NCBI RefSeq assembly: GCF_036898825.1
Contig: NZ_JARUND010000001.1
Location: 3,720,001 to 3,784,000, forward strand
Reading direction: 5' to 3'
Length of the DNA stretch: 64,000 bases
Source of the DNA: Streptomyces sp. B21-083
GTDB lineage: Bacteria; Actinomycetota; Actinomycetes; Streptomycetales; Streptomycetaceae
The translations under genes and the position numbers were made by a program. This document shows positions 3,014 through 6,962 of this stretch, piece after piece; the stretch's first letter is position 1, and each line of letters opens with the position of its first letter. The notes beneath the pieces are model-generated. The model did no database searches and had not been told where the DNA came from. It saw only the letters and a list, made by a program, of their open reading frames with translations.

Positions 3014-4585
3014 CTACTCCCACTCGATGGTGCCCGGCGGCTTGCTCGTCACGTCGAGGACGACCCGGTTGACGTCGGCGACCTCGTTGGTGATGCGCGT
3101 CGAGATCTTCGCCAGGACCTCGTACGGGAGGCGGGACCAGTCCGCGGTCATCGCGTCCTCGGAGGAGACCGGGCGCAGGACGATCGGGTGGCCGTACGTA
3201 CGGCCGTCGCCCTGGACGCCCACGCTGCGCACGTCCGCGAGGAGGACCACCGGGCACTGCCAGATGTCGCGGTCGAGGCCGGCGGCCGTCAGTTCCTCGC
3301 GGGCGATAGCGTCGGCCTCACGGAGGAGGTCGAGGCGGTCCTTGGTGACCTCGCCGACGATGCGGATGCCGAGGCCGGGGCCGGGGAACGGCTGGCGCTG
3401 GACGATCTCGTCCGGCAGGCCCAGCTCCTGGCCGACCATCCTGACCTCGTCCTTGAAGAGCTTGCGCAACGGCTCGATCAGCTCGAACTCGAGGTCTTCG
3501 GGCAGTCCGCCCACGTTGTGGTGGGACTTGATGTTGGCGGTGCCGGTACCGCCACCGGACTCGACCACATCGGGGTAGAGGGTGCCCTGCACCAGGAACG
3601 CGACCTCCGGACCCTCGTCCGCGATGATCTCGGCCTGTGCCTGTTCGAAGACGCGGATGAACTCGCGCCCGATGATCTTCCGCTTCTCCTCGGGGTCGGA
3701 GACCCCGGCGAGCGCGTTCAGGAAGCGCTCCTCGGCGTCGACGACCTTCAGGGTGACGCCGGTCGAGGCGACGAAGTCCTTCTCGACCTGCTCGGTCTCA
3801 CCCTTGCGCATCAGCCCGTGGTCGACATACACGCAGGTCAGCTGGGAGCCGATGGCCTTCTGTACGAGGGCTGCGGCGACCGCCGAGTCCACGCCGCCGG
3901 AGAGACCGCAGACGGCGCGCTTGTCGCCGACCTGCTCGCGGATCAGCGCCACCTGCTCGTCGATGACGTTGCCGGTGGTCCAGGACGGGGTCAGGCCCGC
4001 GCCCCGGTAGAGGAAGTGTTCGAGGACCTGCTGGCCGTGCGTGGAGTGCATGACCTCGGGGTGGTACTGGACCCCGTACAGCTTCTTCTCGTCGTTCTCG
4101 AAGGCGGCGACCGGGACGACGTCCGTGGACGCCGTGACCGAGAAGCCCTCGGGTGCGGCGGAGCAGGCGTCCCCGTGGGACATCCACACCGACTGGTCCG
4201 CCGGGGTGCCCTCGAAGAGGGTGGAGGACGGCTTTGTGACGGCCAGCTGTGTACGGCCGTACTCGCGCGCTCCGGAGTTGTCGACCGTGCCGCCGAGGGT
4301 GGTCGCCATCAGCTGGAAGCCGTAGCACATGCCGAAGACGGGGACGCCGGCCTCGAAGATCGCGCGGTCCAGGCGCGGGGCGCCCTCCGCGTAGACCGAC
4401 GAGGGGCCACCGGAGAGGATGATCGCCGCCGGGTTCTTGGCGAGCATCTCCTCTACCGACATCGTGCTCGGCACGATCTCGCTGTAGACCCTGGCCTCGC
4501 GGACTCGGCGGGCGATGAGCTGGGCGTACTGCGCACCGAAGTCGACGACCAGGACGGTGTCGGGGGCGGGGGTCGCTGCTGACAC
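3014..4585 (-). CDS. guaA: GMP synthase (glutamine-hydrolysing)
   Basis: A 523-residue GMP synthase, full length for the family, converting XMP, ATP and glutamine to GMP in the last step of guanine nucleotide synthesis. Three domains are visible. A class I glutamine amidotransferase (about 9-205) has the catalytic Cys in [15 protein letters not shown] and the His/Glu in QYHPEVMHS. An ATP pyrophosphatase follows with the P-loop [15 protein letters not shown]. The C-terminal dimerisation/XMP domain ends KPPGTIEWE. The matching dehydrogenases guaB and guaB3 lie 25 kb away in the same window. The upstream region holds a copy of a dispersed repeat (4664-4740). Confidence 0.98.
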
Positions 4586-4663
4586 GGGGGCCTTCCGGCG
4601 GTTGGGCGGGGGTCTGTGTGGGCAATTCTACCGGGGTGGCTGTGGGACACCGCGCCGTCGACC

Positions 4664-4740
4664 GGGGGCTGCCGCCCCCAGACCCCCGCCACGGCCCTGA
4701 ACGGGCCTCGTCCTCGAACGCCGGACGGGCTGAAGGTGCC
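4664..4740. repeat. dispersed Streptomyces intergenic repeat, copy 1
   Basis: A stretch containing CCCTGAACGGGCC and GCCGGACGGGCTGAAGGTGCC lies between guaA and the chorismate mutase leader. It recurs at 40574-40650. The last 50 bases of the two copies (4691-4740 and 40601-40650) differ at only two positions. It begins with a GGGGGCTGCCGCCCCC-type hairpin. From general knowledge, similar sequences are common between Streptomyces genes. Confidence 0.75.
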
Positions 4741-4765
4741 GACCGGCGCTGAAAAGGATGCCGCC

Positions 4766-4794
4766 TTGGAAAGGCGGCCCTCCCCGTGCATACT
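4766..4794 (+). promoter_or_regulatory. promoter for a leaderless chorismate mutase leader transcript
   Basis: A TTGGAA -35 hexamer at 4766-4771 and a CATACT -10 hexamer at 4789-4794 are separated by exactly 17 bases. The expected start point, six to seven bases downstream, falls on or next to the ATG of the leader ORF at 4802. No Shine-Dalgarno precedes that ATG, so translation from a leaderless mRNA is the simplest reading. Confidence 0.55.
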
Positions 4795-4801
4795 GACCCC
4801 C

Positions 4802-4873
4802 ATGCTCACGCACCCGACCTTCGTCTTTACCTATGGCAACCGGCCCACCGGCTGCCATGGTCGTGCTGCTTGA
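4802..4873 (+). CDS. putative Phe/Tyr attenuator leader peptide
   Basis: A 23-codon ORF (start MLTHPTFVFTYGNRP) with codons TTC GTC TTT ACC TAT in its first half. TTT and TAT are rare in this GC-rich genome, so two Phe and one Tyr within five codons, two of them in rare codons, is the composition expected of a regulatory leader sensing aromatic aminoacyl-tRNA. It ends 22 bases before a perfect 13-bp GC hairpin and lies upstream of a chorismate mutase gene, the branch-point enzyme for Phe and Tyr. The start is set by the promoter spacing. It is too short to be judged by coding statistics; the assignment rests on position and content. Confidence 0.6.
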   Translation: MLTHPTFVFTYGNRPTGCHGRAA

Positions 4874-4895
4874 GCAACTGACAAGCGACTTCCCA

Positions 4896-4926
4896 GGCGC
4901 CCCGGGCCGACAAGGCCCGGGGCGCC
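4896..4926 (+). terminator. attenuator-type terminator hairpin
   Basis: A perfect 13-bp inverted repeat, GGCGCCCCGGGCC and its complement, separated by the loop GACAA and followed by TGCCGTTTCC. It sits between the leader ORF and the chorismate mutase gene, where it would stop transcription unless ribosome stalling in the leader favours another fold. The T-tract is short, as is common in Streptomyces terminators. Confidence 0.65.
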
Positions 4927-4999
4927 TGCCGTTTCCGGGTTCTGCCGGTCCGGGGCACCTCCTTCCGATCCTTTGGATCCTTCCGACAAGGAGCCCCGT

Positions 5000-5281
5000 A
5001 TGACCTCTCTCGATGTGACCGGCGCCCGCACCCCTGAGGCCGCCGATGTGATCACCGGCGCACGGGAACGCATCGACGCCCTCGACGACCGGATCATCGG
5101 TCTCGTCCAGGAACGGATGGCCGTGTCCGCCGTGATCCAGGAGTCGCGGATCACCTCCGGCGGACGGCGCGTGAACCTGTCCCGCGAGATGGACGTCCTC
5201 AGCCACTACCGGGACGCGCTGGGCAGGCCCGGCACGTCCCTCGCGATGACGTTGCTGGAGCTGTGCCGGGGTCGTATCTGA
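5000..5281 (+). CDS. chorismate mutase (AroQ type)
   Basis: A 93-residue single-domain chorismate mutase of the all-helical AroQ class, which rearranges chorismate to prephenate at the start of the Phe/Tyr branch. The first long helix carries RERIDALDDRIIGLVQERMA, with the family's Arg and Asp pattern; the second contains NLSREMDVLSHYRDALG; the C-terminal helix ends LLELCRGRI. The ATG at 5000 has AAGGAG six bases upstream, so the nine codons of open frame before it are not used. The gene is alone behind the leader ORF and hairpin described at 4766-4926, implying control by aromatic amino acid supply. Confidence 0.9.
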   Translation: MTSLDVTGARTPEAADVITGARERIDALDDRIIGLVQERMAVSAVIQESRITSGGRRVNLSREMDVLSHYRDALGRPGTSLAMTLLELCRGRI

Positions 5282-5756
5282 GTTCGGGCGCCGTCTCACC
5301 CGTCCGGCGCGTGACCGCCGTACGCCGTCCTCGTTGGTACCGGTGTCCGCGCCAGCCAGGGGCGGGCCCGCACAAACCACGCGTGGCTCCAGGGTTGCGA
5401 CCGGACGGCAGGGGACAGCAGCCCGGTCAACCCAGAGAACGGTCGGCCCCGGGGACGCCCGGGGCCGGCCGACACAGGACAGCACAGTCGACTGCGGTAC
5501 AAGGGCCAAAGAGTACGAGTCCGGGTCAAAAGGTTGCGTACTCGGTGACCTTCCAGCACGATGCAGGAACAGCTCCACATCCCTTAGCAGGCAAGTGCAT
5601 TGCCTCGCGATCCCCGACTGCCATTGGTCCAGACCAGGCGTGCGCCTCCTGTACGCCGGGGCGCCGACCGTGGGTACAGACCAACAACGCGGCGCAACCC
5701 CCCGGCGCCGCTTTCCCCCAGGCACCGGCGCTGCCCTGACGCCGGTGCTGACGGAG
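5282..5756. other. gene-free convergent interval
   Basis: About 475 bases between the ends of the chorismate mutase gene and the convergent gene at 5811. No convincing coding frame was seen on either strand. It holds a 10-bp GC hairpin at 5444-5467 that probably ends chorismate mutase transcription, a small inverted repeat GGCAA/TTGCC around 5590-5604, a DasR-like palindrome at 5625-5636, and a second hairpin at 5723-5747 (CACCGGCG/CGCCGGTG). Confidence 0.7.
5625..5636. promoter_or_regulatory. DasR-like (dre) palindrome
   Basis: TGGTCCAGACCA matches the core TGGTCTAGACCA of the GlcNAc-responsive DasR sites, and of chitinase-promoter repeats in Streptomyces, at 11 of 12 positions. It lies between two convergent gene ends, with no gene start in reach on either strand. 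Confidence 0.45.
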
Positions 5757-5790
5757 AAGGGCCCTGCGGCTCCGCCCCGCGGGGCCCTTT
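5757..5790. terminator. bidirectional terminator
   Basis: AAGGGCCCTGCGG pairs with CCGCGGGGCCCTTT around a short loop, giving an A-rich entry and T-rich exit on both strands. It lies just downstream of the minus-strand gene ending at 5811. Confidence 0.75.
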
Positions 5791-5810
5791 GCCGTGTCCG
5801 GCGCCCACTC

Positions 5811-6962
5811 TCAGGAACGTGTCACGATGCCGCAGCTCTTGGTGTCGACTTCACCGCTGCGGTCGTAGGGGTCGACGGCGGGGCCGGTGGGGCTGGCGCC
5901 CGTCGAGTCGGCGTCCGAGTCGAACCCGGGGTGGAGATAGCCGTCGTACACGTCGCAGGCCGAGTTGCCGAGCGAACTGTCGTAGTTCGCGATGCTGATC
6001 CGACCTGGTGTGACCTGGTACTTGGCCGGGTCGTAGAGCCTGATGTCGAGGACCCGGCGCACGATCGTGCGGGCCACCTCGGTCGCGCCCGGGTCGGCGT
6101 GCGTCAGCGGATAGACGAAGGTGTAGTCGGCGTGCACGACGACGGTCTCCTGCCTGCCCGCCTCGAACGTCATCCGTCCGCGGATCTTGACCACGTCACC
6201 GACCAGGCGCAGTTCGGCGGGGTTGAACCTACTGAACATCCGCAGCGGATCATGCTTCTCGTCCGGTCGGCTCAGGCCGGTGTTCAGCAGGCGGAGCAGA
6301 TCCTTCTGGCTGGGGTCGATCACCTTGAGTGCCGCTTCGGGGCGCCCGCCGCGCAGGGTGGCGGGGTCGAGGTTCGCGTTGACCAGGAGCCGCTTGGTCT
6401 GCTGAAGCGCCCGTTGCACCTGGGCCTTCGAGAACGAGCCCACCGCCTTGGCCGTCGGCAGGACGATTCCGGCCGCACCGTTCGAGTACCGCACAGCTGG
6501 TGATCCGGCGAACGGCCTGGTGAGGGTGGGGACATCGGGGTCCGCCGTCGACGGCGCCGCGGACGGCGCTGCCGTCTCCTCGGGGAGCGGGGTGGCGGCG
6601 TAGGTCTCGTCCGACCCGGCGGAACCGAAGGGGTCGCCGGGGAGCAGAGACGGCTTCATGGCCACCACCGCCACGGCGATCGCCAGTGGTGCGCCGATCA
6701 CCGCCCACCACCGTCGGCGCCTCACCGCGCGGTCGTCGGCCTTCTGGCGGGCGGGGTCGGTGCGCCAGCCCGTGGGCTGTTCGCCCCGCGCGTCCTGCTG
6801 GCGCAGCCGTTCGGTGACCATTCGCGCCCGTGCGGACGGTTCCTTCGGAGCGGAGGCACGGATGTCCCGCTCGGTGTCGCGGGTGAACTGCTCCCATATG
6901 TCATCGGGAACCGACGGCTCGGGCTCTTCGGCCGGCTTACCGCCGGGCTGGTTGTCAGACAC
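5811..6962 (-). CDS. membrane-anchored protein with extracytoplasmic domain, unknown function
   Basis: A 383-residue protein. Residues 1-95 are charged and cytoplasmic (DDIWEQFTRDTERDIRA and RMVTERLRQQDA). One transmembrane segment (WWAVIGAPLAIAVAVVAM, about 94-112) and a Pro/Ala/Ser linker follow, then an external domain of about 240 residues. The external part has a helical half (AQVQRALQQTKRLLVNANL) and a beta-rich half ending with cysteines near ACDVYDGYLHPG and SCGIVTRS. I choose GTG at 6962 (VSDNQPGG) because AGGA lies about ten bases upstream and no conserved residues precede it. The layout, short N-domain plus one membrane pass plus sensor-like external domain, recalls proteins that report on the envelope, but no family name can be given. 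Confidence 0.75.
   Translation of the reverse strand: MSDNQPGGKPAEEPEPSVPDDIWEQFTRDTERDIRASAPKEPSARARMVTERLRQQDARGEQPTGWRTDPARQKADDRAVRRRRWWAVIGAPLAIAVAVVAMKPSLLPGDPFGSAGSDETYAATPLPEETAAPSAAPSTADPDVPTLTRPFAGSPAVRYSNGAAGIVLPTAKAVGSFSKAQVQRALQQTKRLLVNANLDPATLRGGRPEAALKVIDPSQKDLLRLLNTGLSRPDEKHDPLRMFSRFNPAELRLVGDVVKIRGRMTFEAGRQETVVVHADYTFVYPLTHADPGATEVARTIVRRVLDIRLYDPAKYQVTPGRISIANYDSSLGNSACDVYDGYLHPGFDSDADSTGASPTGPAVDPYDRSGEVDTKSCGIVTRS

Follow-up and report, generated by a model that had tools for sequence, protein, structure and literature searches.

The window analysed here, a stretch of 64,000 nucleotides from Streptomyces sp. B21-083, carries a short leader element between the leftward gene guaA (3017-4585, minus strand; Pfam GATase and GMP_synt_C) and a rightward gene for an AroQ-type chorismate mutase (CM) of 93 amino acids (5000-5281, plus strand). 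The original prediction had named the latter gene from its letters alone, and the identification is confirmed by Pfam CM_2 and by NCBIfam PRK07857, which scores above its cut-off. A candidate promoter lies exactly where it had been placed: the -35-like hexamer TTGGAA (4766-4771), a spacer of exactly 17 nucleotides and the -10-like hexamer CATACT (4789-4794), which ends 7 nucleotides before an ATG at 4802, all on the plus strand. By eye, TTGG recurs at the same place in many relatives. A strict sigma-70 scan of 4600-5900 reported no promoter; the leader promoter appears weak by itself and draws its support from conservation. The CM ribosome binding site, AAGGAG (4988-4993, plus strand), is conserved as AGGAGCCC. 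A perfect inverted repeat, GCCGCCTT-GGA-AAGGCGGC (4760-4778), has the -35 hexamer of the leader promoter at its centre and scored also as a terminator-like site on the minus strand; by eye it is not retained in relatives, and it could be an operator or a chance occurrence.

The ATG at 4802 opens a plus-strand leader ORF of 23 codons followed by TGA, MLTHPTFVFTYGNRPTGCHGRAA (4802-4873, with the stop at 4871-4873). Its candidate sensor codons lie in the run TTC GTC TTT ACC TAT (Phe-Val-Phe-Thr-Tyr; 4820-4834, plus strand) and number only three: Phe TTC at 4820-4822, Phe TTT at 4826-4828 and Tyr TAT at 4832-4834. The ORF and these codons are present as first reported, and the description of two of them as rare agrees with codon usage in 29 long ORFs of the window that are GC3-rich, where TTT accounts for 1 of 326 Phe codons and TAT for 26 of 288 Tyr codons, some of these TAT codons coming perhaps from spurious ORFs. 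A short ORF, presumably translated, with codons for products of the controlled pathway is the first thing expected of an attenuator.

The second, a terminator hairpin between leader and gene, is present as well, judging from the sequence. Hairpin T (segments 3:4; 4894-4928, plus strand) pairs 4894-4908 with 4914-4928 in a perfect 15-bp stem closed by the 5-nucleotide loop GACAA and followed by a short T-containing tail, CCGTTTCC, so that its U-tract is short; it begins 20 nucleotides past the leader stop. The perfect hairpin originally predicted before CM does exist, but its dimensions need correcting, the 13 bp and 22 nucleotides first given describing the inner part of the 15-bp stem. RNA 4803-5010 folds with a z-score of -6.28 against shuffles, a stability that includes T.

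A reference-genome scan for CM relatives found at least 463 encoded, of which the best 80 were kept, 79 of them from genomes named Streptomyces. The motif TTTACCTATGGCA (at most one edit) together with the terminator (at most two edits) stands upstream of CM in 79 of the 80 fetched loci; in the last (L050) just 146 bases precede the CM match, too short to score. Among all loci with the core motif, 149 of 151 carry a recognisable terminator core 13 to 27 nucleotides after the stop, the distance being 22 nucleotides in 89. We aligned the window with 68 of the 79 loci, the other 11 being omitted as similar by eye. Among the unique rows, 68 in number, neither TTT nor TAT deviates at all, the first TTC deviates in three, and the codon that separates the two Phe codons differs at its first position in 34. 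Two deviations fall in the 5' arm of T and 67 in its 3' arm, the latter count being inflated by shared descent and in part made of alignment shifts at the outer end. From this asymmetry, the 5' arm of T may serve two folds. Nucleotide conservation is very high within Streptomyces, also past the Tyr codon. The frame after that codon can shift (L051), but in two loci (L070, L163) an extra base yields a TAG near the usual place of the TGA; a small-protein function of the leader peptide was dropped, the frame past Tyr not being kept. The leader arrangement and its conservation are far beyond chance. In a few Streptomyces CM leaders, Trp stands beside the Phe/Tyr codons (QWFSY, VWFSY and QFWFTY in L146/L183, L211 and L213).

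Is the element confined to Streptomyces? Of 297 genomes of the family, 120 contain an exact pattern derived from the window; they belong to 5 of the 17 genera, and the other genera have variants. The pattern was found in none of 70 genomes of one genus (g14), by our count of the result rows; a search for the CM enzyme in six g14 genomes gave no match in five and a weak match in the sixth. We picked 120 further stretches from the genus, family, order and class by CM match (E <= 1e-10 for the class set). Four without a usable gene match were dropped, which left 116 loci, and a locus truncated by a contig end (L216) was counted as a failure. The scan looked for an ATG or GTG with a -10-like hexamer 4 to 10 nucleotides upstream, opening an ORF of 8 to 40 codons with at least two Phe/Tyr codons in six. 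Its first version required TANNNT, missed CATACT and gave 27 positives among the 116 at two or more codons; the looser hexamer was adopted after seeing this outcome, and shuffles and reverse strand were rescored with it.

With the looser hexamer, the scan was positive at every one of 37 loci from the genus, where one genome is represented twice, at 33 of 36 from other genera of the family, at 14 of 14 from other families of the order and at 20 of 29 from other orders. The corresponding shuffles passed at 1.0, 1.1, 1.3 and 2.4%, and the reverse strand at 1, 1, 0 and 0 loci, that is, 2 of 116. The three failures in the family comprise two near misses (FSH in L136, VFTQ in L153) and one leader, GFFTYG in L128, that by eye lies behind a weak -10; at nine of the 29 loci from other orders the scan found no leader. 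The leaders themselves vary: RFFFYG (L139), AYFFTYG (L140), AFFFYG (L187), SYFYYG (L190), RFFYYG (L193), RFFYGYR (L219, L221) and RFFYAL (L189). Thus the peptide drifts (FVFTY, FFFY, YFFTY, YFYY, FFYY, FFYGY) and the Phe/Tyr codons are retained; by this comparison it is the codons, not the peptide, that are conserved across genera and orders, and Streptomyces is not alone in having the element. The conservation among orthologues that the original prediction had called for is found for both codons and hairpin in the genus and family, and for the codons in other orders too. In family f6 (L196, L219, L221, L223, L226, L227), leaders of the RFFYGYRSAVPV type precede CM; in four of these loci (L196, L221, L223, L226), GC-rich inverted repeats of the CCCGGGGCTC..GAGGCCCGGG type follow the leader and may be alternative hairpins.

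The same survey bears on where the message begins. In 65 of the 67 leaders outside the genus, a -10-like hexamer ends 6 or 7 nucleotides short of the start codon, although the scan had permitted 4 to 10 and ties were given to the longer distance; with ties broken towards 6-7, the figure is 104 of all 105 leaders. Because this distance is constant, leaderless initiation is the likely state, and the leader ORF likely starts on or next to the transcription start, as first proposed.

The terminator holds up well in the family, where the median stem of T is 15-16 bp and the hairpin has been redrawn with its pairing kept, as in CAAGCGCC...GGCGCUUG (L126) and GAAGACGCC...GGCGUCUUC (L133). T residues make up 0.33 and 0.27 of the 12 nucleotides past the stem in the two family sets and 0.30 in the order, against a background of 0.14; in the class set the fraction is 0.18 (11 measured). 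A hairpin satisfying our rule was present in 11 of 20 leaders from other orders, with a median stem of 11 bp. T is thus well supported as a terminator from comparative sequence, and termination at it is predicted.

The consensus fold of the 69 rows contains two further hairpins, A over the Tyr codon and B over the stop codon, in addition to T. Covariation within Streptomyces is nearly absent (2 of 32 predicted pairs changed on both sides) because the sequence is too conserved. Hairpin A (segments 1:2; 4832-4860, plus strand), TATGGC-A-ACCGG / CCGG-C-TGCCATGG, overlaps the Tyr codon; mean z-scores of its region are -2.04 in the genus (38 sequences), -1.81 in other genera (33), -0.41 in the order (14) and -1.84 in the class (11). 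Hairpin B, TGCTTG / CAAGCG (4867-4887, plus strand), holds two bases of the stop codon in its 5' arm. MAFFT misaligned B across genera, and a looser test of the best helix was significant at p <= 0.05 for 13 of 38 sequences of the genus, 1 of 33 from other genera, 0 of 14 from the order and 0 of 11 from the class. After this weak result, exact complements were counted wherever the leader stop was UGA and T had been located: in the family, a stretch exactly complementary to the last codon and the UG after it occurs in 33 of 58 unique sequences, where about 8 are expected, and it takes five compensating versions (GCUUG:CAAGC, GUGUG:CACAC, GCGUG:CACGC, GUCUG:CAGAC and GCCUG:CAGGC). Outside the family, it was found in 0 of 11 sequences of the order and 1 of 8 of the class. 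Within the family, a hairpin over the stop codon is fairly supported by these complements; beyond it, B finds no support.

An alternative fold, for which the original prediction had suggested a search, was found. With a ribosome placed so that Tyr occupies its A site, the uncovered RNA up to the loop of T gives a partial fold of -20.7 kcal/mol that pairs CCGG-C-UGCC-A-UGG (4848-4860) with CCAGGCG..CCGG (4893-4905), with hairpin B inside. This putative antiterminator (segments 2:3, plus strand) joins 4848-4851 to 4902-4905, 4853-4856 to 4896-4899 and 4858-4860 to 4893-4895. In seven other loci whose folds were inspected (L118, L126, L133, L140, L187, L199, L203), this segment likewise finds its partner in the 5' arm of T or in the nucleotides immediately ahead of it. 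Mean predicted pairing of the 5' arm of T with the ribosome stalled, at the stop codon or absent is 0.67, 0.52 and 0.71 in the genus, 0.68, 0.46 and 0.59 in other genera, 0.57, 0.50 and 0.52 in the order, and 0.64, 0.50 and 0.59 in the class. Pairing in the stalled state exceeds that of the state at the stop codon in 36 of 38, 32 of 33, 5 of 14 and 9 of 11 sequences, respectively, and that of the state with no ribosome in 19 of 38, 24 of 33, 6 of 14 and 5 of 11; in the genus, the state with no ribosome is not accounted for by folding alone. Statistical support for the 2:3 duplex is modest: it reaches p <= 0.05 against shuffles in 10 of 95 sequences, and matched arms beat mismatched ones in 34 of 57. 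We therefore put the antiterminator forward as a proposal with suggestive support, its duplex being slightly favoured over shuffled sequences.

Conservation of the apparently leaderless upstream ORF, of its Phe/Tyr codons and of T is shown by the comparison, as is that of hairpins A and B within the family, and it supports the interpretation first offered. We consider that CM is probably controlled by a ribosome-mediated transcription attenuator that senses charged tRNA-Phe and tRNA-Tyr on a leaderless message, with a probability of roughly 0.83. From the conserved parts we infer a start point, stalling, an antiterminator and a response to starvation, as follows. RNA polymerase would initiate at the leader ATG or immediately beside it, and a ribosome would load on the leaderless 5' end. 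With ample Phe and Tyr, this ribosome would reach the stop codon and prevent the pairing both of hairpin B and of hairpin A's 3' arm; the GC-rich T could then form and end transcription. Without translation, hairpin A would sequester segment 2 and T would form too. When Phe or Tyr is scarce, the ribosome would stall on TTC, TTT or TAT and block hairpin A, segment 2 (4848-4860) would take up the 5' arm of T (4893-4905), hairpin B being stacked within the pairing, and this antiterminator would block T, so that CM is transcribed.

Does the switch have to be intrinsic termination? The ORF might sense Phe and Tyr and yet act through Rho access, RNA decay or CM translation, which we regard as improbable. 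The short U-tract of T would suit such a switch, and mycobacterial cysteine upstream ORFs, according to passages of a survey (PMC1262725), lack clear terminators. Some relatives from other orders have short hairpins near the gene (L189, L194), and in the window the ribosome binding site falls within a predicted local hairpin (about 4953-4999, GGGGC...GCCCC). However, pairing of that site is hardly higher than in shuffled controls (means of 0.65 versus 0.62 in the genus and 0.65 versus 0.58 in other genera), and a hairpin over the CM ribosome binding site was rejected as unsupported across relatives. The compensating changes that redraw T, its long median stems in the family and its T-enriched tail argue for termination instead.

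It is far less probable that an FxFTYG nascent peptide arrests the ribosome upon sensing a ligand or drug: FTYG/FSYG is nearly invariant in the family, but other orders change the peptide (YFYY, FFYA, FFYGY) and keep its Phe/Tyr content, and Trp codons are added in most leaders of DAHP synthase genes. Least credible of all is a structured RNA with no codon sensing (a constitutive terminator, small RNA or protein-binding leader) and an accidental ORF. The very high nucleotide conservation in Streptomyces, even past the Tyr codon, speaks for it; against it, codon content persists across orders that do not share the nucleotide sequence, the frame-shifted L070 and L163 keep a stop near the usual place, and no Rfam family, Phe_leader included, gives a covariance-model match at gathering score, since the region 3500-6500 yielded three weak hits (E 0.016-0.45) that lie far below it.

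An attenuator leader peptide, AroR, reportedly precedes aroF in Corynebacterium glutamicum (Neshat et al., 2014), so that a Phe/Tyr leader at another aromatic gene is already published. It resembles our element: in passages of PMC11802643 and PMC4046766, the leader of this actinobacterial gene, which encodes a DAHP synthase, has Phe-Tyr-Phe, and attenuation of the aromatic-pathway gene responds to Phe limitation, Tyr availability being without effect there according to the review. AroR differs in controlling DAHP synthase where the window element would control CM, a comparison made by description. Assignment of the window element to an AroR type, defined by a Phe/Tyr leader before DAHP synthase, was rejected on that ground; in other families, related leaders do stand before a DAHP synthase gene. 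The pheL leader of pheA is not known to be leaderless, to have sensor codons other than Phe or to be related in sequence to the CM leader. It is similar in function, as it controls a chorismate mutase-prephenate dehydratase gene through charged tRNA-Phe in E. coli and other gamma-proteobacteria (as outlined in part of PMC11802643). Similar in form are the leaderless upstream ORFs trpL1, ilvL and leuL of Streptomyces with their sensor codons, and trpL1, ilvL and leuL2 have terminators as the CM leader does (passages of PMC8079986 and PMC1262725), but other amino acids are sensed.

We thus appear to have a known mechanism at a place where we did not find it described, with unusually broad comparative support. 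Among the matches listed by full-text searches confined to open-licence papers, we recognised no report for actinobacterial CM, which is not proof of absence; the word 'chorismate' is absent from the text of PMC13236596, PMC2965389, PMC4633059 and PMC5784534. The element would fill a stated gap: the relevant passages of Seliverstov's 2005 survey report no conserved RNA structures before phenylalanine/tyrosine operons in actinobacteria (PMC1262725), and among the eight S. lividans leaders named in passages of PMC8079986 there is none that would sense Phe or Tyr. It could also serve as an in vivo reporter of Phe- and Tyr-tRNA charging in antibiotic producers with chorismate-derived aromatic precursors, and its many natural variants would allow a test of how leaderless ribosomes drive attenuation.

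Leaders of related design occur before another aromatic gene. We built a covariance model (R1) from 39 CM leaders; most of its weak hits span only a terminator. Of 14 full-length weak hits that were fetched, nine, from families f19 and f30, are leaders that precede a single type of protein, which NCBIfam identified in 3 of 3 tested cases as 3-deoxy-7-phosphoheptulonate (DAHP) synthase; the other five (L249, L255-L258) look like end-of-gene terminators and were set aside. Among 30 DAHP synthase loci, taken as the best from 80 matching genomes and hence biased to relatives of the query, 20 have an upstream ORF with at least two Phe/Tyr/Trp codons in six, compared with 1.8% of shuffles. By reading, Trp belongs to the cluster in 17 of these 20 leaders (FWRFYGY, WSFWYG, FWFWYG, YYWF), and TGG falls within the six codons up to and including the last Phe/Tyr in 4 of 105 CM leaders, the two scans differing in that Trp was scored only for DAHP synthase. 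Leaderless upstream ORFs with Phe/Tyr and mostly Trp codons before DAHP synthase were thus reached, through the model of CM leaders, in other families of the class (L245-L248, L250-L254, L259-L271, L273, L282, L283 and L285-L288).

The odds seem to us even that these leaders belong to a class-wide set of leaderless aromatic attenuators in the Actinomycetes, whose codons would track the pathway step, with Phe/Tyr at chorismate mutase and Phe/Trp/Tyr at DAHP synthase, and in which the stop-codon hairpin of the Streptomyces family would both report a finished ribosome and fold inside the antiterminator. Such a change of codon set would be a natural experiment on codon-specific sensing. In the window's own genome, the scan found no clustered Phe/Tyr/Trp upstream ORF before two type II DAHP synthases and one prephenate dehydratase; gene starts were taken mechanically, and that of L289 is probably too far upstream, which makes this one locus no fair test. 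At L289, on contig 2, a Trp-rich ORF on the opposite strand by eye adjoins a type II DAHP synthase gene and resembles the published trpL1 (MFAHST..NWWW..HPAAH).
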